A stretch of 64,000 bases of DNA from Caulobacter sp. (GTDB taxonomy: Bacteria > Pseudomonadota > Alphaproteobacteria > Caulobacterales > Caulobacteraceae). The notes under the pieces are model-generated. The model did not search any database, had not been told where the DNA came from, and worked only from the letters and a program-made list of their open reading frames with translations. Below, one piece after another: positions 43,913-56,547 of this stretch (position 1 is its first letter; each line of letters starts with the position of its first letter). The translations under genes were made by a program, and so were the position numbers. The stretch covers positions 124,001 through 188,000 of the forward strand of contig JAUXMY010000042.1 in NCBI GenBank assembly GCA_030683005.1, in the 5' to 3' direction.

Positions 43913-44176
43913 CCCGCCACACCCGCATGGGCCAGGGCCAGGACCAGGGTAAAGGACTCCCTTTCACCTGTCTGCCGACACGTTTCGCGCCACGTCGACC
44001 GGCAAAGTCCACTGCTCCGTAGCTCAGAAACCGCCCGCTCCGGTACACCACCCCATAAACGTGGGATAGCGACCACCTCCCGCCCGCCCCACAACTTCCG
44101 GGACAGCGTCTGGATTGAGGCGCTCGTCCTTCATAGGCAACCGTCGGAGCGATTCGACCTGATCGAGGTGAATGCG

Positions 44177-44533
44177 ATGAACTTCAAAGTCAGCCTGATG
44201 TCCCTGGCGTCGACGCTCCTTCTGGCGACACCCGTGACCTTCGTCGCGACCAGTCCGGTGCAGGCCGCGGAATGGGCCTGCGGGGCCAACAACTCGCTTA
44301 CATGCCACGATCTGCCCTGCGGGCTTAACGACACGCACTATGACGACCACTGCGTCAAAAACACTGTCAGTGTTAAGCCCGACACCGCAGGCCCCGTCCG
44401 GGAAGCCACCCCGCTCGACGGTCGCGCGCGCGTCAAGGGTCCAGGCATCCCCGCCGGCCCCTCGGCATCCACGGCCAAGCCGAAGCCTACCACCGGAACG
44501 CCGACGACCTCGCCGGCGAAGCCTATCCCCTGA
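44177..44533 (+). CDS. small secreted Cys/Pro-rich hypothetical protein
   Basis: 118 residues. A signal peptide MNFKVSLMSLASTLLLATPV followed by an Ala-rich cleavage region is followed by a short Cys-containing segment (WACGANNSLTCHDLPCG, DDHCVKN) and a disordered Pro/Thr/Lys tail. GAGGTG sits before the ATG at 44177; a GTG at 44168 is the alternative. No family recognised. Probably periplasmic or surface exposed. It is on the opposite strand to the surface-protein operon and converges on it. Confidence 0.6.
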   Translation: MNFKVSLMSLASTLLLATPVTFVATSPVQAAEWACGANNSLTCHDLPCGLNDTHYDDHCVKNTVSVKPDTAGPVREATPLDGRARVKGPGIPAGPSASTAKPKPTTGTPTTSPAKPIP

Positions 44534-44598
44534 TTGACGATGCCTGAACCGCGCCTGGTCGCGATCCCGCGGGATCCGGCAAGGCGTTGGTGCTGCGA

Positions 44599-44913
44599 TC
44601 AGAACGTGCAGATCAGCGACGGCGGCAGCAGCTTGAAGCGGCACCTGATCTTCGGCTTGGCCGCCTTGGCGCCCCGCGGCTGCGCCGTCGGCAGGCCAAC
44701 CGAGGGCGCGGCGCAGCCGGCCCGGACGAAGATGGCCTGGATTTCGGCGGTGTCGCCTTGGCCGGCGAGGGTCTCGATGGTCGACTGATTGGCGCGGAAC
44801 ACCGCCGTGCAGTCGGGGCCAGTTCTGGCCGTACCGACCTGCTCTGCCGGCGCCTGGACGCCAACCATGCCCGAGGCCGCGAAGGCCAGGATGATCCCGC
44901 AAGACTTCAGCAT
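44599..44913 (-). CDS. small secreted hypothetical protein
   Basis: 104 residues with signal peptide MLKSCGIILAFAASGMVGVQ and four later cysteines (DCTAVF, RAGCAA, IRCRFK, LICTF). Unknown family. It may be the last gene of the minus-strand CsgG/DUF11 unit, 70 bp after the 151-residue protein. The start is the first ATG of the frame. Confidence 0.6.
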   Translation of the reverse strand: MLKSCGIILAFAASGMVGVQAPAEQVGTARTGPDCTAVFRANQSTIETLAGQGDTAEIQAIFVRAGCAAPSVGLPTAQPRGAKAAKPKIRCRFKLLPPSLICTF

Positions 44914-44983
44914 GGCTTTGTTTCCAGGACGAAAAGCGGGCGGGTCCGGCGGAAACGAAGTCGCCGGTCGCTGTGGTCGGTCG

Positions 44984-45439
44984 TCATGACGAGGGCGTCC
45001 CCACCACCTGGCTGCGTTCGCACATTCGCCCGACGATCTTGAAGGGCGGTATGACGATGACGGGATTGTAGGCGCTCAGGGCCGGCGGATAGCCGCCGAA
45101 GGTCGTCTGGGTCGCGTACTTCATCCTGTAACGACCGGCCGGGACCACAAGATTGTAAACCTGATTGGCCGTCGCGGGCGGGTGGAGAACGATGTTCGAA
45201 CCCCCGCCGACCGGCGCGAAGACATGGACGTTCTTCACCGCCATGGCCGGATAGGTCACGCGCACCGTCTGCGCGACGCCGCCGTTGACCTGGCAGATAA
45301 CCTGGACGATCGGCAGGTTCGAGGTCTGAGCCGCCACGCCGGACGGCGGCGCCGCCGACGCCAGCCCGAGCAGTGCCGTCGCGGCCAGCATCGGGATCCG
45401 TCGTTCCCGGAATGCTCGGTCGTGAGTCCGCGTCACCAT
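44984..45439 (-). CDS. secreted hypothetical protein of the surface-protein operon
   Basis: 151 residues. A basic N-terminal region (RTHDRAFRERR) precedes the hydrophobic core MLAATALLGLASAAPPSGVA, consistent with secretion. The mature part is beta-rich, with single cysteines in VIC and RMC. Only 22 bp separates it from the DUF11 gene, so it is almost certainly cotranscribed. No family recognised; possibly an accessory or chaperone for the large surface protein. Confidence 0.65.
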   Translation of the reverse strand: MVTRTHDRAFRERRIPMLAATALLGLASAAPPSGVAAQTSNLPIVQVICQVNGGVAQTVRVTYPAMAVKNVHVFAPVGGGSNIVLHPPATANQVYNLVVPAGRYRMKYATQTTFGGYPPALSAYNPVIVIPPFKIVGRMCERSQVVGTPSS

Positions 45440-45461
45440 GATCTGGCTCCTTGTCCGGGCG

Positions 45462-48400
45462 TCACGGCAAGACCGTGGTCACCGAGGTGGTGTTGTTGGA
45501 TGGGACCGGGTCGGCGTTACCGTTCATCTGGATCTGGCCGGTGAAGGTCACCGGCAGGCCAACATGGAGGGTGTTGTAAAAGACCTTCAGCCGCAGCGGG
45601 ATCAAGCCACCGGACCAGGCCCCCGATGAGACGTTCAGGGTGCAGACAAACCCGCTCCACGGCCCGACGCAGCTCCACAGCGGCGTGTCGCTGACCGTCG
45701 CCGACGAGATGCCGGGAGGCGCGAACGTCGCGGGTGTGACGACCGATCCGTTGAAGACCAGCTGGGCGCCGTTGGCCAGCGTCGGGGTGCTGGAGACAAA
45801 GAACTCGAACGTCGCCCCGTTCAGCGCCAGGTCGGTCTCGATGATGGTGCTGGCCAGACCCAGGTCGAAGTGGGTCGAGCCCATCTCGACGCAGGACTGG
45901 GCCGACACCGGCGCGGTCAGGACGGCGCAATTCTGTTGCGGCGGGATCGCGCCGTTGATCGTCATGTAGATCGGGATCGTGATGTGACCGTTCACCGGAA
46001 TGGTCGCCGATGTGATCGAGCAGGTCATCGGCTGGGCGCCGGAGCAGTTCCAGCCCGAAGGCTGCGGCGAGGTCAGGCTCACGCCGCTGATGGTGATGCC
46101 CGAGGGGCCGGTCACGGTATCGGTGAAAGTCAGCGGTCCGGTGTAGACCGTCGACCCGGTGTTGAAGATCCGGATCATGAACTTGCAGGCGGTGTAGGGG
46201 TAGGTCCCGCTGCAGTCCTGCTCGACCACCTTTTCGATCTCGAGGCTGGGCGGCGTGGGTGTTGACGGTGTCGCCGTCGCGCAGTCGGAATTGTCGTCGA
46301 GCGTTGTCTCGGCAACGCTGGCCGACAGGGTGATGCAGTTCTCGTAGGCGGGCTGGACCGGGCCCACATAGCTGACCTGGATGTCGGCGATCTCCATGGC
46401 CGTGGGGAGCATGGGCGCTGTCAGGGTGATCGTGCAGGTCACCGGTCCCGGGCCGACAAGCCCGATCGGCGTGCAGGTGAATCCACCAGCCTGACTGTCC
46501 AGACGCATCCCGGCGGGCAGGTTGTCGATGATGGTCAGAACCGTCCCTGCGGGAATGGGGTTGGTCGATGTGTTCGTTGCGGAAAGCCGGAACCAGAAGC
46601 CCGGCCCCACCTGCGGGGGCCAGAGGCCAACAGCTTCCTTGTCAGCCTTCAGGTTGAGCGGCAGGGAGGGCTGTCGGACCAGAACCGGCGCACAGCCCTG
46701 GTTGTTACCGGCTACGGGATCGCCCGGGATGGCGACCTGGGCGCAGTTCTGGGTCTGCCCCGCCGTGGTCGCGACCGCCGAGAGGGTGATCGGCGGAAGG
46801 CTTTGGTTCAGGCCGAAGACGCCCGGGCCGGTGTAGGAGCAGTTGACCGAGAGGCCCGACGGCGGCGGGCAGGTCCATCCCGGCGCGGTGATCGTCACAG
46901 GCGCCGAAAACAGGCTCGGCAGGGTATCGGTGACGACGATGCCGCTGCCGGCGTCGACCGACCCCGGCCCCAAATTGGTCGGATAGAGCACGAAGGTCAT
47001 CGACTGCCCGACCATCACCGGGGAGTTTGATTCCTTCTGTATCTGCATGTCGTTGGCGGGCTTGGGCCAAACCACCTCGACCGGCTCGCAGTCGCGGTTG
47101 TTCCGCATGTCGACTTCTGACCAGGGCCTGTCGCGTCCGTAAACCACGACCGAGGCGCAGTTCTGGTAGCTCGGCTGCCTCTTGTCGGTGAAGCCAACCG
47201 TCATGTCGAACTGGATGAAGCCGCCCGGATTGAGGTCGGCGGCGGACGTATAGTTGCAGGTCACCGTCGCGGCCCCGACCGTCCCGGAGCCGGGCGAACA
47301 GCTCCAGCCGACAGGTGTCGCGACCAGGACCATGCCCGCCGGCAGGTTCTCGGTCAGGGTGAAGGTGTGGCCGGCCGGGACGGGCGCGTCGCCGACGTTG
47401 GCGATCTTGAATTGATAGACTCCGGTCCCCGACGGCCAGGACCACGGCTGCTTGAGGGCGGTCTTGGTCAGGCTGATGTCGGGCCTGTTGCCGGTCGGAT
47501 TGCCGACCTCGCCGTCGACGCAGCTTGTGTTGTCGCGCGGATTGAGGTCGCGGCCCGCCTCGATGGTGATCTCGGCGCAGTTTCTGAACCTCCCTGCCTC
47601 AGCGACATTGGCGAGGATCTCGATCGGCGGCAGCGGGCCCGGTCCCACGGACGGACCGGTATAGGTGCAGACTACGGTCCAGGGCCCGCCGCCGGTGGTG
47701 GCGCAATTCCAGTTGTTCCCGCTGCCGATTATGGTCGGCTGGAAATTCGACGGCAGCGTATCGACGACCCGGACGCCACTGGCCGACGAGATCGACGATG
47801 GGCCGTTGTTGGTGGGATAGATCATGAAGGTCGCCGGTCCCCCCGGCTTGGACGGCGGCTTGTAGGTCTTGCGGATACCGAGGTCGTAGCCCTCCGCGTC
47901 CTTCCGGATCACGCCCTCGGCGCAGTCCTTGTTGTCGCGCGGGCTGTTGCTGGCGACCTTTCGGAACTCGACCCCGGCGCAGTTGAGATAGGAGCCGATC
48001 TTCCCGGCCTTGCCCTGGATGGTGATCGTCGGGAACTGCAGGTTCGGGCCGACCGGCGGACCCGTGTAGGTGCAGGTGACCAGCGAGCTCGAGACATTGC
48101 AGGTCCAGCCCACGCCGGAGGCCGTCACGCCGGCGAAGGCGGAGGGCACCTGATCCACCACCGTCAGTCCGGCGGAGGCGTCCACGGACGACTGGCCGGT
48201 GTTGGTGACCTGGATGGTGAAGCTCGAAAGCTGTCCGTAGGTGATCGTGCCCGGGCCGTCCTTGCGGATGCTGGCGTCGTAGCCGCCCAAGGGCTTGGCG
48301 ATGCGTCCGGTAATGCAGGACTGGTTGTTCCCGGGGCGCATGTCCGTCCCCTTGAGGACCTCGATCCGCGCGCAGTTCTGGTAGGTCGGCCGATCCTGCG

Positions 48401-48812
48401 CCACGAGGGTGACCGTGATCGGAGGGAATCCGGCGCCGGGCGCCACCGGACCGCCGACCCAGGTGCATTGCAGGCTGAAATTGCCGCCGGAACAGGACCA
48501 GTTGGTCCCTGAGCCGGCCATCGGCCCCTGGAGGCCGACGAAGCCGTACTCCGAAACGATGAGTCCCGGCCCGGGGCCGCCGATCGACGTCGTCCCGTTG
48601 TTGGTGACCTGCAGCACGAAGGTCGCCGTCTGACCGGCGATGACCGTACCGACAGCGCTCTTGGAGATCGCGACGTCGGTGATCTTTGGCAGGGGCCTGG
48701 GATCAGGGCCGACGTCGCGGGGTCCCTCCCAGCCTTTCGGAACCTGCCCGAGGGCGGGGCCGGCGAGACAGAGCAGCAGGGCGCCGAGCGCCTTGGCCAG
48801 ATGCATTTTCAT
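45462..48812 (-). CDS. large secreted DUF11-repeat protein
   Basis: 1116 residues: signal peptide (MHLAKALGALLLCLAGPALG) and about eight Ig-like DUF11 repeats of 110-130 residues. Each repeat carries a recurring cysteine set: W-x-C and L-x-C-x-Y in the first half, then Y-x-N-C-A and a D/N-N-x-x-C near the end (GNNQSC, RDNKDC, RDNTSC, RNNRDC, GNNQGC, DDNSDC). No LPXTG, autotransporter barrel or type I signal was seen. Likely a disulfide-stabilised surface or extracellular filament protein, perhaps exported with help from the adjacent CsgG-like protein. Confidence 0.8.
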   Translation of the reverse strand: MKMHLAKALGALLLCLAGPALGQVPKGWEGPRDVGPDPRPLPKITDVAISKSAVGTVIAGQTATFVLQVTNNGTTSIGGPGPGLIVSEYGFVGLQGPMAGSGTNWSCSGGNFSLQCTWVGGPVAPGAGFPPITVTLVAQDRPTYQNCARIEVLKGTDMRPGNNQSCITGRIAKPLGGYDASIRKDGPGTITYGQLSSFTIQVTNTGQSSVDASAGLTVVDQVPSAFAGVTASGVGWTCNVSSSLVTCTYTGPPVGPNLQFPTITIQGKAGKIGSYLNCAGVEFRKVASNSPRDNKDCAEGVIRKDAEGYDLGIRKTYKPPSKPGGPATFMIYPTNNGPSSISSASGVRVVDTLPSNFQPTIIGSGNNWNCATTGGGPWTVVCTYTGPSVGPGPLPPIEILANVAEAGRFRNCAEITIEAGRDLNPRDNTSCVDGEVGNPTGNRPDISLTKTALKQPWSWPSGTGVYQFKIANVGDAPVPAGHTFTLTENLPAGMVLVATPVGWSCSPGSGTVGAATVTCNYTSAADLNPGGFIQFDMTVGFTDKRQPSYQNCASVVVYGRDRPWSEVDMRNNRDCEPVEVVWPKPANDMQIQKESNSPVMVGQSMTFVLYPTNLGPGSVDAGSGIVVTDTLPSLFSAPVTITAPGWTCPPPSGLSVNCSYTGPGVFGLNQSLPPITLSAVATTAGQTQNCAQVAIPGDPVAGNNQGCAPVLVRQPSLPLNLKADKEAVGLWPPQVGPGFWFRLSATNTSTNPIPAGTVLTIIDNLPAGMRLDSQAGGFTCTPIGLVGPGPVTCTITLTAPMLPTAMEIADIQVSYVGPVQPAYENCITLSASVAETTLDDNSDCATATPSTPTPPSLEIEKVVEQDCSGTYPYTACKFMIRIFNTGSTVYTGPLTFTDTVTGPSGITISGVSLTSPQPSGWNCSGAQPMTCSITSATIPVNGHITIPIYMTINGAIPPQQNCAVLTAPVSAQSCVEMGSTHFDLGLASTIIETDLALNGATFEFFVSSTPTLANGAQLVFNGSVVTPATFAPPGISSATVSDTPLWSCVGPWSGFVCTLNVSSGAWSGGLIPLRLKVFYNTLHVGLPVTFTGQIQMNGNADPVPSNNTTSVTTVLP

Positions 48813-48834
48813 GACGTATTCCCCCGAGCCCGCT

Positions 48835-49758
48835 CTATTCCGCCTTGAGCAGGTCGCCGCGCGCCGGCGATTGCCCCTCGACCATCCGCGCGACGGAAAC
48901 CTTCTCGCGGACGCTTTCGACCTGGACCGAGCCCAGCCGCTGGATGTCGACGTCGAGGACCTCACCGGTCCCCGGGTCCGTCAGCGTCTCGCCCTTGCGA
49001 TAGACGCCGAAGACCATGCCCTCGCCGACATTCTGGTCCGCGCCGGCGTTGAGGATGATCGTGTCGCCGCGGACATCGACGATCAGGCCGGTCCAGGGCG
49101 CGCGCTTGTTGTCGATGGCCAGCCCCGCCAGCGCCTTGCGGATGGCGTCTTCCAGCGCCTTGCCCATCGAGGTGCTCTTGAGCGTGTTCAGGCCCAGAGT
49201 GGCGCCGGTGTTGAGATCGACCACGCCCGCGTCCATGTCGCGGCTCGAACCGGTTCCCTCGGCGCTGGAGGTGGCCACCACCTGACCGGTGGCGGCGTCG
49301 ATCAGGCGAAGCGAGATCTTCACGGTCGACTTGCGGCTCTGCAGACCCGCGCCGAGCCCCAGCTTCGAACCGCTCGGCATGCCCCCGAGCCTCAGGCCGC
49401 CGCCGCCCGCCGTCGGGTTGAATGCCGTCACCGCGCCGCGGATCAGGTAGCTGGCGCCGATCATCCGGCCGCTGGCCGCCGCGGTTTCGCTGGTCGTCGA
49501 GCCGCCCTGCCCCAGCTGCTGCTCGGACTGCAGCCCGCTCAATGCGGCCCGTTCGACCACGACGAAGCGATTGTCCTCCATCAGGATCTCCGTCAGCAGG
49601 GCGGGCGGGCCGTCGGAGGCGACCTGGCCGCCGAAGACCTCAGAGCCGCCGAAGCTCTCGACGGCCACCGTCTTGCGCAGGCCTGTCGGCTGGGCCCATG
49701 CCGGTCCGAACGTGAGGGCGGCCAGCAGGGCCAGCACCAGCGAAACGGTCGTCTTCAT
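48835..49758 (-). CDS. CsgG/HfaB-like curli-assembly family protein
   Basis: 307 residues with signal peptide MKTTVSLVLALLAALTFGPAWA and a CsgG domain (VAVESFGGSEVFGG, LTEILMEDNRFVVVERAALS, GASYLIRGAVTAF, KISLRLIDAATGQVV). CsgG forms the outer-membrane curli secretion pore and HfaB serves holdfast anchoring in Caulobacter. Unlike these lipoproteins, no lipobox Cys follows the signal peptide. First gene of the unit; 22 bp before the DUF11 gene. Export of the DUF11 protein is an inference from order. Confidence 0.78.
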   Translation of the reverse strand: MKTTVSLVLALLAALTFGPAWAQPTGLRKTVAVESFGGSEVFGGQVASDGPPALLTEILMEDNRFVVVERAALSGLQSEQQLGQGGSTTSETAAASGRMIGASYLIRGAVTAFNPTAGGGGLRLGGMPSGSKLGLGAGLQSRKSTVKISLRLIDAATGQVVATSSAEGTGSSRDMDAGVVDLNTGATLGLNTLKSTSMGKALEDAIRKALAGLAIDNKRAPWTGLIVDVRGDTIILNAGADQNVGEGMVFGVYRKGETLTDPGTGEVLDVDIQRLGSVQVESVREKVSVARMVEGQSPARGDLLKAE

Positions 49759-49812
49759 CCGAGAACACCCATTGTTATCCACGATGGGACCGTGAGGCCG
49801 CGTGCGACGATC

Positions 49813-49840
49813 GGCCACCCCATGATCTTGGGGGGTGGCC
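49813..49840. promoter_or_regulatory. palindromic operator-like site upstream of the csgG-like operon
   Basis: GGCCACCCC ... GGGGTGGCC forms an imperfect dyad around ATGATCTTGG. On the minus strand the core is CCCCCAAGATCATGGG, 15/16 identical to the site at 56325-56340. It lies about 70 bp upstream of the CsgG-like start and about 75 bp upstream of the divergent gene at 49902. Confidence 0.55.
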
Positions 49841-49901
49841 AGCGGCGTTGATCGCCTTGCATAGTGCGAACAGGGGACGTTCCGGGCGTGGAGGGGGTGA
49901 G

Positions 49902-51035
49902 TTGCGTCTGTCGGCGGCGGTCTCCGCGCTGGTCCTGCTCGTGTGCGCGGGACTGGCGTCATTCGCCTGGACAACCCGGCCGCCAAAGGCTCCGGCGACC
50001 GCGTCGACCGGCATGGACACCCTTCGCGCCTACCGGTGCCGAAGCGCCGAAACCAAGACGATCATCATCCGGGGGGTTGAAGACAATCATTTGCCTGCCG
50101 GCGACGAACCCAACGTCATTCGCGCCGAGCGCCGGTTTCCGGATACGTTGACCTACTTCGCGGGCGGCTCTTATGACCAGATCCAGGCAGACCGGCGGTT
50201 TACGGATTCGTTCAGGGCGCCCGCCAACACCGCCCGCGGTCTGTTCCTTATCGGGCTCAAGGCAGTAGCGAACAACGATACCGACACGATCACCATCGGC
50301 GACCTCAGCACCTTTTCGCCAATCAATCCGGTCGGAACGCGATTCGGGTCGCTGATTGCGCGCCTTGAGCACCTCCCGGGCTGGTCGAGGCAGGGCGACC
50401 TTCACCTCGCGGAGCTGTCGGCGATCAGCCTCTACCGGGGCCTCGACGGAGATGAAGGCGCGCCGGGCCGGACCCTTCTCGACCTCATTCGGAGCGGGGC
50501 AAATGAGGGCTGGGTCGACATCTCGGTTCAGGATGACACCAGCGTCGACTTCATCGGCGTCGCGCTCTGTCAGGAGCCGCCCCGCGGCAAGGGCCTGAGC
50601 CTGGCGCCCATGAGCATGGAGCCGCTGCCCATAAAGGGCGTGGTCGCCCTGACCTGCAGCCACGGCGGGCGCGACCAGCGCAACTGCGACCCTTATGTCG
50701 GCGACATGGTCTGCGAAGCACGTCTTCCGGTCGCATGCTTCCGACCGATGGCCTCGGCGATGCCCCGTGCCTTGTCCCGCCACTTCGCGCGAACCGTCTG
50801 GAGCGGCGGCCAGATCGCCTTCACCAGCCCCGTGGCGGGCTCAAGCCTGGCAACAATCGGCGAGGTCGACGCCCGGTGCGCCTCCCGCTTCGGCGGCGAA
50901 TGGCGCGCGGCGACGCTCCACGACGGGACGAACAACATGGGCATCAGCGGGTTCGGCGACCCGGCCACGCTGTCCGGCCGGGTATGGGTCGACAGCATCG
51001 ACCAGCCCTACGCCACCTGCTGGGCCCGCCGATGA
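49902..51035 (+). CDS. secreted or membrane-anchored hypothetical protein coupled to response regulator
   Basis: About 377 residues from TTG 49902 (GGAGGGGG just upstream). The N-terminal hydrophobic stretch LSAAVSALVLLVCAGLASFAW is a signal peptide or anchor; the rest appears globular with several cysteines. No family recognised. Its stop overlaps the ATG of the response-regulator gene (ATGA), so it may be a sensor input, ligand-binding or target protein of that system. Confidence 0.68.
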   Translation: MRLSAAVSALVLLVCAGLASFAWTTRPPKAPATASTGMDTLRAYRCRSAETKTIIIRGVEDNHLPAGDEPNVIRAERRFPDTLTYFAGGSYDQIQADRRFTDSFRAPANTARGLFLIGLKAVANNDTDTITIGDLSTFSPINPVGTRFGSLIARLEHLPGWSRQGDLHLAELSAISLYRGLDGDEGAPGRTLLDLIRSGANEGWVDISVQDDTSVDFIGVALCQEPPRGKGLSLAPMSMEPLPIKGVVALTCSHGGRDQRNCDPYVGDMVCEARLPVACFRPMASAMPRALSRHFARTVWSGGQIAFTSPVAGSSLATIGEVDARCASRFGGEWRAATLHDGTNNMGISGFGDPATLSGRVWVDSIDQPYATCWARR

Positions 51036-51694
51036 CCGACGCCGTCGCCCGCATCGGCATCCTCGAAGACGATGAGTCGCTACGGCTTTATCTCGAAGAG
51101 GTCCTCACCACGACCGAGGGACTCGATCTGGCCTTCTCCGAGGGCACCGTCGCCGGCGCGCGCCTGGCCAGCGCGGAGGGGCGGCTCGATCTCTGCCTGG
51201 TCGATCTGAAGCTGCCGGACGGCCACGGGCTCGACTTCGTGGGTCATATCAAGGCGACCACGGCGGCCAAGTGCCTGATCCTGACCGTGCTCGGCGACCG
51301 TACCAGCGTTCTGCTGGCGCTGCGGGCGGGCGCGGACGGATACCTGCTGAAGGACACGCCGCCTGACCTTCTGCGCTCGAACATATTCCGGACCCTGCGC
51401 GGCGAGACGCCGATCAGCCCGCAGGCGGCCACCTTCCTCCTGGAGATGTGGCGCGCCGCCGAGCCGGCGACCGTGCCGGAGCAGTCGGAGGACGCGCTGA
51501 CGACCCGGGAGGTCGAGGTCCTGAAGCTGTTCTCGCGCGGCCTGAGCTATCGCGAAGCGGCCGATACGCTGGGGCTCTCCCAGCACACGATCGGCGACTA
51601 TGTGAAGTCGATCTATCGAAAGCTGAGGGTGCACTCCCGGACGGAGGCCATCTTCGAGGCCCGGCAAGTGGGCCTTATCTCCCCACTCGACTGA
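51032..51694 (+). CDS. NarL/FixJ-family response regulator
   Basis: 220 residues. Receiver domain with acidic pair at 13-14, phosphoacceptor Asp58 in CLVDLKLPDG, Thr85 and Lys107; LuxR-type helix-turn-helix (about 152-212) with LTTREVEVLKLFSRGLSYREAADTLGLSQHTIGDYVKSIYRKL. Such regulators bind short dyads, which makes the palindromes at 49813 and 56325 attractive targets. Its likely kinase is encoded convergently 6 bp downstream. Confidence 0.93.
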   Translation: MTDAVARIGILEDDESLRLYLEEVLTTTEGLDLAFSEGTVAGARLASAEGRLDLCLVDLKLPDGHGLDFVGHIKATTAAKCLILTVLGDRTSVLLALRAGADGYLLKDTPPDLLRSNIFRTLRGETPISPQAATFLLEMWRAAEPATVPEQSEDALTTREVEVLKLFSRGLSYREAADTLGLSQHTIGDYVKSIYRKLRVHSRTEAIFEARQVGLISPLD

Positions 51695-51700
51695 AGGCGT

Positions 51701-53596
51701 CTACAGCGGGAGAGGCGCCTCGACCCTGACGACCGTGCCTCGGCCGCCTTCGATCGGCCCGACCTTGACGACGCCGCCCAGGTCAGCGGCCCTTTGGGCC
51801 ATGTTCGCCAGTCCGCGCCCACGCTTCACCGTCTCCGGATCGAAGGCGTCGCCGTTATTCTCGATGAGAACGGTCAACAAATGACCGTCACTGTCGATCG
51901 TCACCGAGATCCGGTCCCCCCCGGCGTGACGGATCGCGTTGGTGATCGTCTCCTGCATCAGCCGGTAGAGGTTCAGGATCCACTGCGGCTCCCGGATTTC
52001 AGCGCCCAGGCCGTCCGCCTGGCTCCACTCCAGCGTGATCCCGGCCGCCGCGGTCTGTTGCCGGGCGCGGTCAAGGAAGGAGGCCAGGGCGTCGGCGAGG
52101 GTCTCGCCCACGACGTCCATTGAATCGACCAGGAGTCTGAGTTCGGACAACCCCCCGACCAGCGCCTGCTCGACGTGGTCCATGCTGACCTTCCGCAGGC
52201 GCACCTGGGCGATCAGGGAGGCCAGGTGGCCCCCTATGCCGTCGTGAACGTCACGCGCCATCCGCTGACGCTCCTCGAGGGCCGCGGATCGACGGGTGTT
52301 CTGGTCCAGAGCGGCCGCCGCGACGTCCAGCGCGGCCTGCTGCCGCGCGATGACCCGGGTCTGGTCCAGCCTTGTTCGAAGCGAGTGACCGACCCGCACG
52401 ACAATCTCGCGCGCGCCGGCGGCGGACGCCAGCAACGCCAGCCCGCTCAGGCCGGCCGCAAGGCTGATATCCACGCCGGCGGTCGGTCCCGGCGCGATCA
52501 GGCCGCCGGCGCCCGCCGTGGTGATCGCCGCTGTCGCAAACCCGAGCCCGGCGACGAGTCCGGACAGGATCTGCCACTGCCTCGGCAGAGCGGACAGCTT
52601 GGGGAAGGCGCGGGCCGTGGTCCAGAACAGCCATGTCACCGCGAGCAGCAAGGCGACGGGTCCGGCCGGCGCGAAGACGGTCATCCCGTTCGCCCCCGCC
52701 GCCAGGCCTACAGCCCCCGACAGCGCCACGACGGTCAACAGTCCCGCCTCGATGCGGCGCGCGGGGCCGCCCCGCGCGACCTCCCCACGAAGGGCGAGGC
52801 CGGCGCAGATCGCCGTTGCGGCCAGCAGCAAGGGATCCAGGACAGACCAGATCGGCCCCGGCAGTCCGGAGGCCTCGGCCAGGAGAATCCGCGTTGCGGT
52901 CGCCGCAAAGGCCGCGCCGATAGCCAGATGGTAGAGGGGCGCTCGGACGGCCACGGCGAGCAGGTTGAGGAACAGCGCGATGACCGAAAGCGCCAGAACC
53001 AGTCGCCGCGCGCTGTCGACGACGGCGGCGCCCCGAAGCGCCGCGGGTTCAAGGGCGGCCTTCGGTCCAAGGTAGATCGGCGCGGCGAGTGCGCGCGCCG
53101 GGGCGCCACTGACCAGGATATCGACCCGGTTCTCGCCGGGGTGGAGATGGGAGCGCGGGATCTCCCAGACCCGGCCGCGGGCGCTCGGCCACGCCAGTCC
53201 GGGCGAGGAAGCGGCCAGGCCGCCCCTCAGCGGAACGCCGTTGACGAACAGCCGGGGCTCACCGCCGACCGCCGGCAGCACCACGGCCATCGGACCCGCC
53301 GCGGGCGATGACAGCCGGAAGCGATGGGAAATCTGAACCGGCGACGGGTCGCCGAACGGAAGCCGATCGACCCGGGCCGGCGTCTCGCCTTCCACCGCGT
53401 ATCGCGGCAGCATCGTGGACGCGGCGGGGATCCACTGCACCTCGCCGTCCGGAACGCGCCATGTCGAGCGCTGATCCTGTCCGGGCGTCCAGGGCGAAAG
53501 CCCCGCCAGGGCGACGACCAGCACCGCCAGAAGCGCGGTCGCCCGGACAGCCTGTGATCGCCCGGACCTTGTCTCGATGCGATCACTCTCCGTCAC
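51701..53596 (-). CDS. membrane sensor histidine kinase, NarX/DegS-type (HisKA_3)
   Basis: 631 residues. An N-terminal helix, a periplasmic beta-rich domain (about 40-185, 7TMR-DISMED2-like), seven or so membrane helices (about 195-400), then HisKA_3 with phosphoacceptor His451 in RMARDVHDGIGGHLASL and an ATPase domain with N-box TITNAIRHAGG and G-box RGLANM. GTG start. HisKA_3 kinases pair with NarL-type regulators, matching the adjacent convergent gene. The signal may be a sugar or carboxylate, as for DISM proteins. Confidence 0.9.
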   Translation of the reverse strand: MTESDRIETRSGRSQAVRATALLAVLVVALAGLSPWTPGQDQRSTWRVPDGEVQWIPAASTMLPRYAVEGETPARVDRLPFGDPSPVQISHRFRLSSPAAGPMAVVLPAVGGEPRLFVNGVPLRGGLAASSPGLAWPSARGRVWEIPRSHLHPGENRVDILVSGAPARALAAPIYLGPKAALEPAALRGAAVVDSARRLVLALSVIALFLNLLAVAVRAPLYHLAIGAAFAATATRILLAEASGLPGPIWSVLDPLLLAATAICAGLALRGEVARGGPARRIEAGLLTVVALSGAVGLAAGANGMTVFAPAGPVALLLAVTWLFWTTARAFPKLSALPRQWQILSGLVAGLGFATAAITTAGAGGLIAPGPTAGVDISLAAGLSGLALLASAAGAREIVVRVGHSLRTRLDQTRVIARQQAALDVAAAALDQNTRRSAALEERQRMARDVHDGIGGHLASLIAQVRLRKVSMDHVEQALVGGLSELRLLVDSMDVVGETLADALASFLDRARQQTAAAGITLEWSQADGLGAEIREPQWILNLYRLMQETITNAIRHAGGDRISVTIDSDGHLLTVLIENNGDAFDPETVKRGRGLANMAQRAADLGGVVKVGPIEGGRGTVVRVEAPLPL

Positions 53597-53726
53597 GTTC
53601 AGCTCTCGTCCTTGCGGCTACAGGCCGGCGGGGTCCGTCGAGCCCCGCTCGTCCGAGCTCGGGCAGTCTGCCAGTTTTCGGTCCCACCGCCCAACAGACC
53701 CTTACCGTCGGCGTCCCCCCGCCCGA

Positions 53727-56240
53727 TCAGAGCGCGCGGTTGCCAAACCAGACCGTGACCACCGCGTTCGCGCCGACCACGACCGTCTTGACCAGCGCGC
53801 CGAAGGGGTCAGTGCTGGTCCAGCCCGCCTGGGGCGTCTCGGTGACGGTATAGGTCCCGGGCGGCGCCAGGGCCGACATGCACCATCGCCCGTTGGCGCC
53901 GGTGCTTCCCTGGCCGACGATGGTGTTCGACGCGTTGCGCACGGTGAATTGCCAATTCGCCAGCGGCGGCTCCCCGCCGTCCCGCGACCCGTTGTTGTTG
54001 AGATCATTGTACTTCTGGACACAGATCTCGCCCGGCAGCGGGTCCTGGAGGTTGCCGAACTTCACGGTCGTCGTCTGGTTCGTCAGGACCACCGCCGTCT
54101 TGACCGGTGACAAGCCGCCGGGGTCGGTGCTGGTCCAGCCGGATTTCATCGTCTCGGTGACGGTATAGCTCCCCGGCGGCAGCAGGGTGCCGGGGCACCA
54201 GCGGCCATTGGCGCCCGTGCTCCCCGACAGGCTCGGCATGCCGCCGCCGCTGCGGGTAAAGGTCCAGCCCTGCAGCGGCCCTTCGCCCGGGTCCTGGTCG
54301 CCGTCACCGTTGAGGTCATTGTACTTCTCGACGCACAGCTCGCCCGGAAGCGGGTCCTTCTGATTGCCTAACCAGAATTCGGTGGGTCCGCCGTAGGGCG
54401 TCGGGATCGTGACGGTGACGGAGGCCGCGCCGCCGGGCTGGGTATTGGTCCAGCCGCCGGGCACGGTCTCGGTGACCGTGTAGACGCCGGGCATCAGGGT
54501 GCTCGGCGTGCAGTAGACCCCCAAGGCGGCGGTCAGGCCGGTATGGACGACCTGGCCGCTGCTGTCCTTCACCTCGAAGGGAACCCCGGTCATGAAAGGC
54601 TCGGGCCCGCTGGATGCGCCGCTCCAGGCCCCGTTGCCGTTGACGTCGTTGTACTTGCGCACACAGATCTTGCCGAGCTGCACGTTGCCGAAGATGGCGT
54701 TGAACGTCCCGCCGGCCGCCACGGTGAAGGTCTCGACGGCAGCCCCGCCGGGATCGGTATTCACCCATCCCGTCGCGGGGAGGTTCTCGGTGATCGTGTA
54801 GTTGCCCGGCGGCAGGATGAACGGGCTGCAGGCCGGGTAGCCGCTGGTCGAGGTCAGGGTCGTGACCGTGACGCCGTTGACGTCCTTGACGTTGAAGGTC
54901 CAGCCCGTAAGCCCGGGCTCATTCGACTGCCGCGCCCCGTCGCCGTTGAGGTCGTTGTACTTGGTGACGCAGACCTTTCCCGGCGGCGGGGGGGCATTGC
55001 AGACGAAGCGGTTGGTGACCGTTACGGTGTTCGCGCCCGCCGCGACCGTCAGCGGCGAGCCGGGGATCAGCGGCGGCTCCCAGTAGCCGCTGCCGGTGGG
55101 ACAGGCGGCGAAGGGGATGTTGCCTTGGGGCAGGATCTCGCTGACCGTGCAGACCGCGCCGACGGGGATGTTGTTCAACGAAACGGTCTGGCCCGCGGGC
55201 ACATTCGCCAGGGTATTCATGGCAGCCAGCGGGCAGTTGAGCTTCACCGGGAACGAACCACTCGTCGCCAGCCCCGTCGTGGGGTAGCCACCGCCCGGCG
55301 CCGTCGAAGACACGATCTTTTTCAAGCCTATTGTCGCCAATCTCCTGTTTCCGAAGAACACTTCGCGGTCAGTGTTTCCATCCCAGTATATGTAGTTCTC
55401 AATCATGCTCGCTACACTGCCACCGGAAGGTTCCGTGTTTATCCATCCCGGTTGATTTTGCTCCATGATGTTGTGAATTCCGCCTGGCGGATCAATACAG
55501 GCCCGACCGTTCGCGTCTGTCTGCATAAAAATGTTCATGACGTTGCTCATGGCTCCGTCAGCCTCAAACCACCAGCCCTGAAGCGGCGGCTCTCCGGGGT
55601 CTCTCTGCCCGTTGGCATTCAAGTCATTGTACTTCGTGACACAAAGCTGGCCGGCGCCCTGAGGCGTTCCCGACCCGGGGCCGCCGCGCGCCGGGCCACC
55701 ACGGGCAGGACCGACCGCGACGCCTGCACCGCCCGCACAGCCCGGGCCGCGGCAACTTCCGAAGAGCACGGTGACCGCGCCCTCCGTCCGCAGGCTCACC
55801 GACCTCATGTTCGGCGACGCCGCGCCGGGATCAGTGTTGGTCCAGCCGCCGCCGGGGATCTGGCGCACGCGGTAATCCCCGAACGGCAGCGGGCGCGGCG
55901 TGCAGAAGCGGCCGTCGCCGCCCGTCGCGCCCTGGGCGAGCTGCGCCCCGGCGGCGTTGGCGATGGTGAAGCTCTGCCCGAGCAGCGGGCCTTCGCCGCC
56001 GTCCCGCCGGCCGTTGCCGTTGCGGTCGTCGTAGGCCACGACGCAGATCTGGCCGCCCCGGAGCGGCTCGACGACCTTGCCAGGCGCCGCGGGACCGGAC
56101 GGGCGAGGCGGCGCGACCACATCGGGCCGGACGCCGGACGCGGCGCGGTCGGGGCGGACCTGGGCCGAGGCGGCGCCGACCACCAGAAGCCCGAGGACGG
56201 CCATCAGGCCGGCAGTTCCGAGACGTCCACGACCCATCAT
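53727..56240 (-). CDS. secreted SdrD_B/Cna-B-repeat surface protein
   Basis: 837 residues: signal peptide (GTAGLMAVLGLLVVGAASAQ) and at least six SdrD_B-like modules, each opening with a variant of CVxKYNDLNGDGxxDxGE, whose D-x-N-x-D/N-G loop resembles a calcium site, and closing with a YTVTE(T)-x-GWTxTDPGG strand. A different Cys-containing module sits between modules two and three (about residues 305-415). No sortase motif or barrel anchor. The segment coding the second and adjoining modules (about 55310-55640) is much less GC-rich. Starts at ATG 56240/56237 after GGGCTCGGGG, the same leader string as the DUF11 gene. Confidence 0.8.
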   Translation of the reverse strand: MMGRGRLGTAGLMAVLGLLVVGAASAQVRPDRAASGVRPDVVAPPRPSGPAAPGKVVEPLRGGQICVVAYDDRNGNGRRDGGEGPLLGQSFTIANAAGAQLAQGATGGDGRFCTPRPLPFGDYRVRQIPGGGWTNTDPGAASPNMRSVSLRTEGAVTVLFGSCRGPGCAGGAGVAVGPARGGPARGGPGSGTPQGAGQLCVTKYNDLNANGQRDPGEPPLQGWWFEADGAMSNVMNIFMQTDANGRACIDPPGGIHNIMEQNQPGWINTEPSGGSVASMIENYIYWDGNTDREVFFGNRRLATIGLKKIVSSTAPGGGYPTTGLATSGSFPVKLNCPLAAMNTLANVPAGQTVSLNNIPVGAVCTVSEILPQGNIPFAACPTGSGYWEPPLIPGSPLTVAAGANTVTVTNRFVCNAPPPPGKVCVTKYNDLNGDGARQSNEPGLTGWTFNVKDVNGVTVTTLTSTSGYPACSPFILPPGNYTITENLPATGWVNTDPGGAAVETFTVAAGGTFNAIFGNVQLGKICVRKYNDVNGNGAWSGASSGPEPFMTGVPFEVKDSSGQVVHTGLTAALGVYCTPSTLMPGVYTVTETVPGGWTNTQPGGAASVTVTIPTPYGGPTEFWLGNQKDPLPGELCVEKYNDLNGDGDQDPGEGPLQGWTFTRSGGGMPSLSGSTGANGRWCPGTLLPPGSYTVTETMKSGWTSTDPGGLSPVKTAVVLTNQTTTVKFGNLQDPLPGEICVQKYNDLNNNGSRDGGEPPLANWQFTVRNASNTIVGQGSTGANGRWCMSALAPPGTYTVTETPQAGWTSTDPFGALVKTVVVGANAVVTVWFGNRAL

Positions 56241-56246
56241 CAGCAA

Positions 56247-56547
56247 TCCCCGAGCCCGCGGCCGACCGCCAGCGGTAAGTCGTCGCTACGGCGATCAGTA
56301 GAGCTCGACGATCATCGTCCCTATCCCATGATCATGGGGGAGGCGGCGGTGCGGTCGCCGTGAGCGTCGGTCCACCCGCGACCGGATTTCACCGGGACAG
56401 CAGCCATATCTGCAGGAGCAAGCCAACGATCTCAGGAAGGCCGAGGCGTACGCGTTCGCCGGCGGCGCCGCGGAACCGATGAGTCTGACGCCTGGCGTCT
56501 CAGCCCGACATCGCGTCGCGAACTGCGCAGCAGTTCAACTGCCTGAT
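56247..56547. other. non-coding upstream region of surface-protein gene
   Basis: Contains the dyad at 56325-56340 and a GCGCAGCAGTTCAACTGC-type imperfect palindrome near 56525-56542, just beyond the tRNA 3' end, which may act as its transcript terminator. No ORF is supported. Confidence 0.5.
56325..56340. promoter_or_regulatory. palindromic operator-like site upstream of SdrD_B-repeat gene
   Basis: CCCATGATCATGGGGG contains the perfect dyad CCCATGATCATGGG. It is nearly identical to the site at 49819-49834 and lies about 90 bp upstream of the surface-protein start. Both sites are also preceded on the plus strand by CGACGATC. Confidence 0.55.

Follow-up and report, generated by a model that had tools for sequence, protein, structure and literature searches.

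A rare palindrome beside a NarL-type two-component system marks a probable accessory surface-protein island in Caulobacter sp.

NarXL and other two-component systems of the NarL/FixJ kind combine a regulator formed by a receiver and a GerE domain with a HisKA_3 sensor kinase, and act on inverted repeats with a CCC...GGG core. An engineered NarL site of the 7-2-7 type, TACCCCTAAAGGGGTA, is given in the accessible portion of PMC4549865, and that of PMC2275270 gives for the LuxR-family regulator DosR the palindrome TTSGGGACTWWAGTCCCSAA, with an A/T centre. On the side of surface proteins, curli (csg) loci contain a CsgG-family gene, and in Caulobacter HfaABD, according to the available part of PMC6707917, a CsgG-like protein stands beside a large adhesin-like protein. 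Here we describe a locus at positions 44050-56340 of a window of 64,000 nucleotides (the whole stretch of DNA analysed) from Caulobacter sp., assembly GCA_030683005.1, contig JAUXMY010000042.1, positions 124,001 to 188,000, which judging from its sequence is probably an accessory island for surface proteins, equipped with a NarL-type two-component system of its own.

The locus shares with NarXL the regulator and kinase domains and the inverted repeat with a CCC...GGG core, so by domains its two-component system is of the NarL/FixJ kind; neither the score nor the site spacing is that of NarL. The regulator scores 93.9 against an equivalog cut-off of 250, and in our model of 26 sites four bases separate CCCAT and ATGGG, instead of the two of the 7-2-7 arrangement in the portion of PMC4549865 cited above, if CCCAT is taken as the end of the heptamer. 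The targets are predicted secreted proteins, and not respiration. With the DosR palindrome, as shown in the accessible text, the A/T centre is common, whereas letters, targets and organism differ, and therefore we treat it as an analogy only. A CsgG-like protein beside a large adhesin-like protein is found here as in HfaABD, and a CsgG-family gene as in curli loci, with the same operator before csgF-csgG-csgA in one relative (G013). Nevertheless, the locus is neither curli nor, on present evidence, the holdfast anchor. A few queries of the open-access literature returned no description of the palindrome or of the gene combination among the titles and abstract openings of the top matches, and five variants of the exact 14-mer had no match in the open-access papers searched.

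We think it likely that the NarL-type regulator binds palindromes of 14-18 bp and thereby controls both surface-protein units and its own genes within the probable island. As comparison of the sequences shows, the palindrome lies upstream of the units of the locus, has hardly any copies outside them in this genome and recurs with the regulator lineage. An earlier sequence-only reading of the window had pointed to two 16-mers differing at one base, with a regulator and its kinase between them, and had proposed that the 16-mers are a shared operator. The two sites are indeed present at 49819-49834 and 56325-56340, on the minus strand in both cases, with the genes for the regulator and the kinase between them (Table 1). 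Many copies in other places had been named as an outcome that would speak against the proposal; genome-wide, exact 16-mers occur at these two places alone, with one further place at one mismatch. The consensus MYCCCATRWWYATGGGRK, allowing up to two mismatches, occurs at four places in the 3.45-Mb genome, none of them with more than one mismatch, whereas its backward control occurs once, which bears out a genome-rare shared operator. Three of the four fall within the 12.3 kb of the locus, and since such a rare site precedes its gene groups, the cluster is probably switched as one unit.

The third of these places, operator C (ACCCCATAAACGTGGGAT, core 44052-44065), was found by the site model while being outside its training set. 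With a model trained without this genome, operators B, A and C score 25.5, 24.1 and 22.2 bits, versus 6.5 bits for the next-best place in the 64 kb. Operator A divides the CsgG-like/DUF11 unit from a divergent unit formed by the regulator gene and the gene of X395, a membrane-anchored extracytoplasmic protein, and its 14-mer core ends 60 bp before the CsgG-like start (49758). The core of operator B ends 84 bp before the SdrD_B start (56240), and operator C lies 111 bp ahead of a gene for a small secreted protein (44177-44533). "Secreted" denotes throughout a signal-peptide-like start judged by eye, and the start codons used for site-gene gaps are our choice. The third site places the left edge of the locus near 44050; the earlier limit of 44599 therefore has to be moved, and the cluster as first outlined, although real, lacked this site and X395 (49902-51035). 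The fourth place (C18:67554) is about 100 kb off on the same contig, 234 bp upstream of another small secreted-protein gene. Because of it, the system is not fully self-contained, as had been suggested.

Comparison with other genomes was based on samples of 199 genomes of the family and 398 of the order. The main non-circular test used the window-derived 14-mer only, with 100 shuffles as background. With up to two mismatches, it gave 13 matches in the 13 module loci (those with homologous module regulators) of other genomes, spread over eight of them and lacking in L044, L085, L086, L089 and L091, whereas the shuffles gave a mean of 0.97 and a maximum of 5. Beside 16 other NarL-type regulators there was one match versus 1.07 in shuffles, which is the chance level. 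With up to three mismatches, the module loci gave 26 matches versus 9.4 (maximum 16) and the other-regulator loci 17 versus 12.2, a count reached by 10 of the 100 shuffles. One further module locus (L268) is outside the 13. Four loci with X395 or its C-terminal domain and no regulator seen adjoining were excluded from the module set (L094, L095, L097 and L098; best site 13.6 bits), as were L059 (short, nothing above 9 bits) and L045 (curli type) from the other-regulator set. The operator is linked to this two-component system, as first proposed, because it recurs above chance beside module regulators in other genera and at chance level beside the 16 less related ones.

The site model is consistent with this link. 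When one group at a time is left out, 25 of the 26 training sites stay the top places of their locus, the weakest retained being those of L089 and L091 (13.5 bits). An operator of at least 16.8 bits lies within about 6.5 kb of the regulator in the window and in 11 of 14 other module loci (training sites included), and the gap between site and gene is 35-90 bp in 31 of the 34 pairs with an assigned start (21, 111 and 234 bp in the rest). Concerning autoregulation, a site of at least 15 bits was found within 300 bp upstream of five of 39 distant regulators, against 9 of 1908 other 300-bp bins; the 39 come from the better 40 of 80 loci, minus L145 (too near a contig end), and L136 was scored as a miss, its regulator being immediately preceded by X395 and not by the operator. 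Around less related regulators (L137-L215), 1,171,148 bases contain no site of 20 bits or more, and the two sites that attain 18 bits precede Bradyrhizobium regulators. A control of 439,421 bases from chosen loci gave one place of at least 15 bits; this control omitted L046 (27.1 bits, a hairpin in G097), L048 and L049 (15.1 bits each, before regulators) and L059. Two Bradyrhizobium regulators that are 39-40% identical (L143, L148) have CCCATGAACATGGG upstream, which suggests an old autoregulatory site.

Several observations weigh against our interpretation and should be given their due. Most of the sites from which the model was built had initially been picked out for their resemblance to the window, and one candidate (L045:5866, before a curlin-like gene of G013) was withdrawn as its score fell from 12.5 bits in training to 5.9 with G013 left out. 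In three of the 14 other module loci, a strong site is missing from the 6.5 kb or so on either side of the regulator: the best of L085 reaches 12.5 bits, that of L268 12.9 bits, though at the expected place, and L086 has 9.6 bits near the regulator and a 17.0-bit site about 9 kb off, before an open reading frame of 2475 amino acids (aa). Conversely, a 15.1-bit variant, CCCGCGATTAAGGG, stands just upstream of two less related regulators (L048, 10366; L049, 9518), and sites of 15-17 bits occur also away from any regulator start (L149, L166, L203, L215). Across 16 module or related genomes, the looser pattern CMCATRNNYATGKG matches 51 times when read forward, and the control 12 times. Of the forward matches, 14 fall in a module or curli locus: 3 of 6 in G391, 3 of 7 in G209, 2 of 5 in G454, 2 of 2 in G290, 1 of 2 in this genome (G000), 1 of 4 in G013, 1 of 3 in G213 and 1 of 5 in G342, with none in G154, G474, G326, G429, G435, G407, G386 and G439. 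Sixteen of the outside places were annotated; one is before an RTX gene beside a related kinase, and the rest are in genes or beside genes with no visible link. Nor is genome-wide rarity general, since the consensus with up to two mismatches gives three places in G154 and one in G917, none of them in the module locus, and the backward control beats the motif in G911 (22 versus 9) and G917 (12 versus 1). The three best consensus places of G911 are, however, those of its locus. As side observations, the regulators of L048 and L049 adjoin related kinases, and the backward consensus has 8 matches in G915 and none in G154 and G916.

A different DNA-binding protein might bind the palindromes, the neighbouring regulator and kinase being merely among its targets. 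One site of this genome is about 100 kb from the regulator gene, and in G013 there is a site ahead of an RTX gene whose neighbour is a kinase, the contig ending before any regulator is seen. Against this, the sites track this regulator lineage across genera and stand directly upstream of distant homologous regulators, for instance in Bradyrhizobium and in a metagenome-assembled genome (MAG) of Burkholderiales; no other regulator gene common to the annotated loci was noticed, with no search aimed at one. We consider this explanation improbable.

It is even less probable, to the point of being very doubtful, that the palindromes are RNA elements such as hairpins, attenuators or terminators instead of operators. 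CCCAT and ATGGG are able to pair, and site A is enclosed by a longer inverted repeat, GGCCACC...GGTGGCC. The exact 14-mer is present in 3 of the 199 family genomes, namely this one, G097 and G013. In G097 (L046, 8266), two convergent genes flank a perfect inverted repeat of 30 nt, GATCCTCCCCCATGATCATGGGGGAGGATC, with the 14-mer as its core, a case which we set aside as background. On the other side, the stems of several sites would not pair throughout, with T-T opposed at site A, C-A in the site of L003 and both A-A and A-C in G154, and several sites lie between divergent genes. In addition, 51 of 52 central letters are A or T and conservation extends to the letters flanking the 14-mer (pyrimidine in 50 of 52, A/C in 46 of 52), and no site within the window overlaps a terminator-like structure or an Rfam match.

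The regulator has the receiver and GerE domains that define the NarL/FixJ type. In its receiver, E12/D13 and D58 are invariant among ten sequences and K107 nearly so, and the kinase has HisKA_3 and HATPase domains with the H-box DVHDGIGG. With a receiver that looks normal and a kinase with an H-box, phosphorylation appears plausible. In X395, a single N-terminal helix is followed by a middle part rich in beta structure and by a C-terminal domain that contains cysteine. The protein matched nothing in Pfam, NCBIfam or PHROGs; its structure model has a mean predicted local distance difference test (pLDDT) of 81, and Foldseek returned no solved structure at E <0.001. Among the 398 genomes sampled from the order, 14, counting this one, have a match to X395; G154 has X395 yet falls outside those 14. 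A regulator and a kinase of the same type stand beside X395 in 11 of the 12 loci shown (the exception is L094); X395 is coupled to the regulator and is part of the module. In several relatives the C-terminal domain of X395 is also encoded as a free protein with a signal-peptide-like start (L084:10364-10927, L087:10274-10846, L088:3542-4102), in each case with an operator upstream and the full-length X395 gene downstream.

Table 1. Features of the locus, with positions in the window; identities refer to the copy in L136, a locus of the MAG Caulobacter sp. Tobar12.5m-G13.
Feature	Positions	Strand	Remarks
Operator C, ACCCCATAAACGTGGGAT	44050-44067		core 44052-44065; 22.5 bits (22.2 with model trained without this genome)
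Small protein, 118 aa	44177-44533	+	signal-peptide-like start; probable target of operator C, 111 bp downstream of it
Small protein, 104 aa	44599-44913	-	signal-peptide-like start; 88% identical
151-aa protein	44984-45439	-	signal-peptide-like stretch; 68% identical
DUF11 repeat protein	45462-48812	-	PF01345 7.5e-45, five DUF11 stretches; signal-peptide-like start; 67% identical
CsgG-family protein	48835-49758	-	PF03783 8.3e-29; without lipobox; C-terminus weakly FlgT_C-like (0.0015, under cut-off)
Operator A, common to two divergent units	49817-49834		25.2 bits (24.1 with genome left out)
X395, membrane-anchored extracytoplasmic protein	49902-51035	+	start TTG; overlaps regulator gene (ATGA)
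NarL/LuxR-type response regulator	51032-51694	+	GerE 6.1e-14, Response_reg 1.2e-13 (Pfam)
HisKA_3/HATPase sensor kinase	51701-53596	-	Pfam domains
SdrD_B repeat protein with DUF5979 domain	53727-56240	-	PF17210 1.7e-33, five stretches; signal-peptide-like start
Operator B, upstream of SdrD_B gene	56323-56340		26.3 bits (25.5 with genome left out)

From left to right, operator C and the first small secreted protein are followed by the unit of two small secreted proteins, DUF11 and CsgG-family proteins on the minus strand up to operator A, then by X395 and the regulator on the plus strand, the kinase and SdrD_B genes on the minus strand, operator B and a tRNA-Lys gene. The protein at 44177-44533 has no match in Pfam, NCBIfam or PHROGs, and tblastn matched the window alone. 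The regulator and kinase genes converge, with their stop codons 6 bases apart. Since the gap between SdrD_B and kinase genes contains no operator of at least 9 bits and no terminator-like structure, both genes are probably read from operator B. A consensus scan detected no sigma-70-like promoters.

In the family sample, 35 of the 199 genomes have regulator homologues at E 1e-30. The closest named counterpart of the cluster is L136 (MAG Caulobacter sp. Tobar12.5m-G13), where the regulator is 78%, the CsgG-like protein 87-90%, X395 56%, the kinase 55% and the SdrD_B protein 74-80% identical. This relative also keeps the DUF11, 151-aa and 104-aa proteins (Table 1), with SdrD_B at the opposite end of the cluster, so both repeat proteins, as the first reading would have it, go together with the module. 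With no Caulobacter site in training, its sites score 23.1 bits before SdrD_B, 25.0 in the gap between the CsgG-like and X395 genes, 24.7 before the kinase and 16.1 before a further secreted protein. SdrD_B-like proteins of 953-1401 aa with DUF11 likeness exist in three genus mates (L253, L254, L255), away from any module. In G915 and G916 no regulator match was found at E 1e-40, and in G917 the regulator is on another contig; the annotated stretches around the SdrD_B-like genes of these three genomes have no operator of at least 10 bits.

Related bacteria, as far as their sequences tell, hold the same arrangement with different surface proteins. CCCATGAATATGGG occurs twice and CCCATAAATATGGG once in G209, CACATGATCATGTG is present in G290 and G342, and there are three sites in G391 and two in G454. 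In the more distant loci of Caulobacter type in G154 and G917, the sites between the divergent units have drifted (CCCGAGTTCATGGG, CCCGCGTTCTCGGG) and are the second-best and the best place of their locus, respectively. The genes after the operator encode a PKD/autotransporter protein (L089), an FG-GAP protein as second gene (L090), an RTX protein (L113) or proteins of no family (L084, L092), and the module locus L085 has a laminin-G/DUF11 protein and no strong site. By eye, secreted proteins of L084, L085, L087 and L092 have a common C-terminal region that opens with CC, for which three scanned proteins (L087 was not among them) gave no Pfam match over the cut-off, and proteins of L084, L087, L088 and L090 end in a basic tail. 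In G209, two near-identical operator-bearing promoter regions (L087, 4007 and 6367) accompany an apparently duplicated surface-protein gene.

Another case is G013, in which the exact 14-mer lies between a regulator that is 39% identical and a CsgF-CsgG-curlin operon (CsgF 3e-10, under the curated cut-off; curlin 1e-4, over the cut-off). There, the regulator-kinase pair is divergent from the csg operon (L045, G013:C88, 7830-11228); the reading frame of CsgG seems to contain a shift, and its two parts were compared separately. On another contig of the same genome (L113, G013:C2, 2966) the palindrome is 66 bp before an RTX calcium-binding repeat gene, with a related kinase adjoining at the contig end.

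This brings up the possibility of a curli-like secretion route, in which the CsgG-like protein would be an outer-membrane channel exporting the DUF11 and SdrD_B proteins, the role attributed to HfaB with respect to HfaA and HfaD. The match to PF03783, the linkage of CsgG-like and DUF11 genes kept in L136 and the palindrome before the csg operon of G013 are in favor of it. However, the protein has no lipobox cysteine, its CsgG equivalog score in NCBIfam is 17.9 versus a cut-off of 505, its match to CsgG structures is partial (chain residues 64-191, E 8e-5), and its structure model (pLDDT 50) is too poor to show transmembrane hairpins. CsgF (PF10614) has no match in this genome at E 0.001, no curlin was found by Pfam among the ten proteins of the region, and G154 keeps the CsgG-like gene in a locus with no DUF11 or SdrD_B match. 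We see this route as conceivable and rather unlikely. That the locus is itself curli was rejected, with no CsgF, curlin or lipobox found, and so was a general curli operator, as five of six CsgF loci were annotated and had no site of at least 12 bits in those stretches (the sixth, below the family cut-off, is outside that annotation). A separate gene of the CsgG family, whose product has a lipobox, lies at G000:C4:225025-225645 and is followed by that of a 415-aa protein; the former is, in our judgement, hfaB-like by its lipobox and neighbour. With this lipoprotein-type copy on C4, the CsgG-like protein of the locus was discarded as the HfaB or holdfast anchor of the genome.

The mechanism that we propose would start with the kinase, perhaps together with X395, sensing an envelope or surface signal and phosphorylating the regulator. 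A regulator dimer would then bind the palindromes 60-111 bp before the start codons, most likely switching the genes on. One set of targets would be the CsgG-like, DUF11 and two small secreted proteins; another would be SdrD_B plus, by read-through, the kinase; and a third would be the small secreted proteins at 44177 and about 100 kb off. Through the divergent site A, the regulator may act also on its own operon, closing a feedback loop of positive control with autoregulation. The products may form or decorate an extracellular layer, which is the least certain step; that the two repeat proteins build a surface structure, as the first reading had it, is likewise conjecture.

A further idea, which we put forward tentatively and regard as less likely than not, is that X395, regulator, kinase and palindrome constitute a portable control cassette for extracellular layers, with X395 as a tethered checkpoint. 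As the C-terminal domain of X395 would in relatives also be made free from an operator-controlled promoter, the cell could compare tethered and secreted copies and tune the output to the surface layer. If this were true, the cassette would have been placed in Caulobacterales before unrelated secreted proteins (DUF11/SdrD_B here, PKD/autotransporter and unclassified ones elsewhere), and an older branch would control curli and an RTX protein.

Caulobacter is a model genus for surface attachment, and the locus would provide in it a regulator whose operator is defined and nearly unique in the genome, and whose predicted regulon is small (four sites). Its targets are uncharacterised large repeat proteins, and the module holds a protein family without match in Pfam, NCBIfam or PHROGs. 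Moreover, the presence of the same operator before unrelated matrix proteins in related genera may offer a route to studying how bacteria swap extracellular materials while the control circuit is kept.

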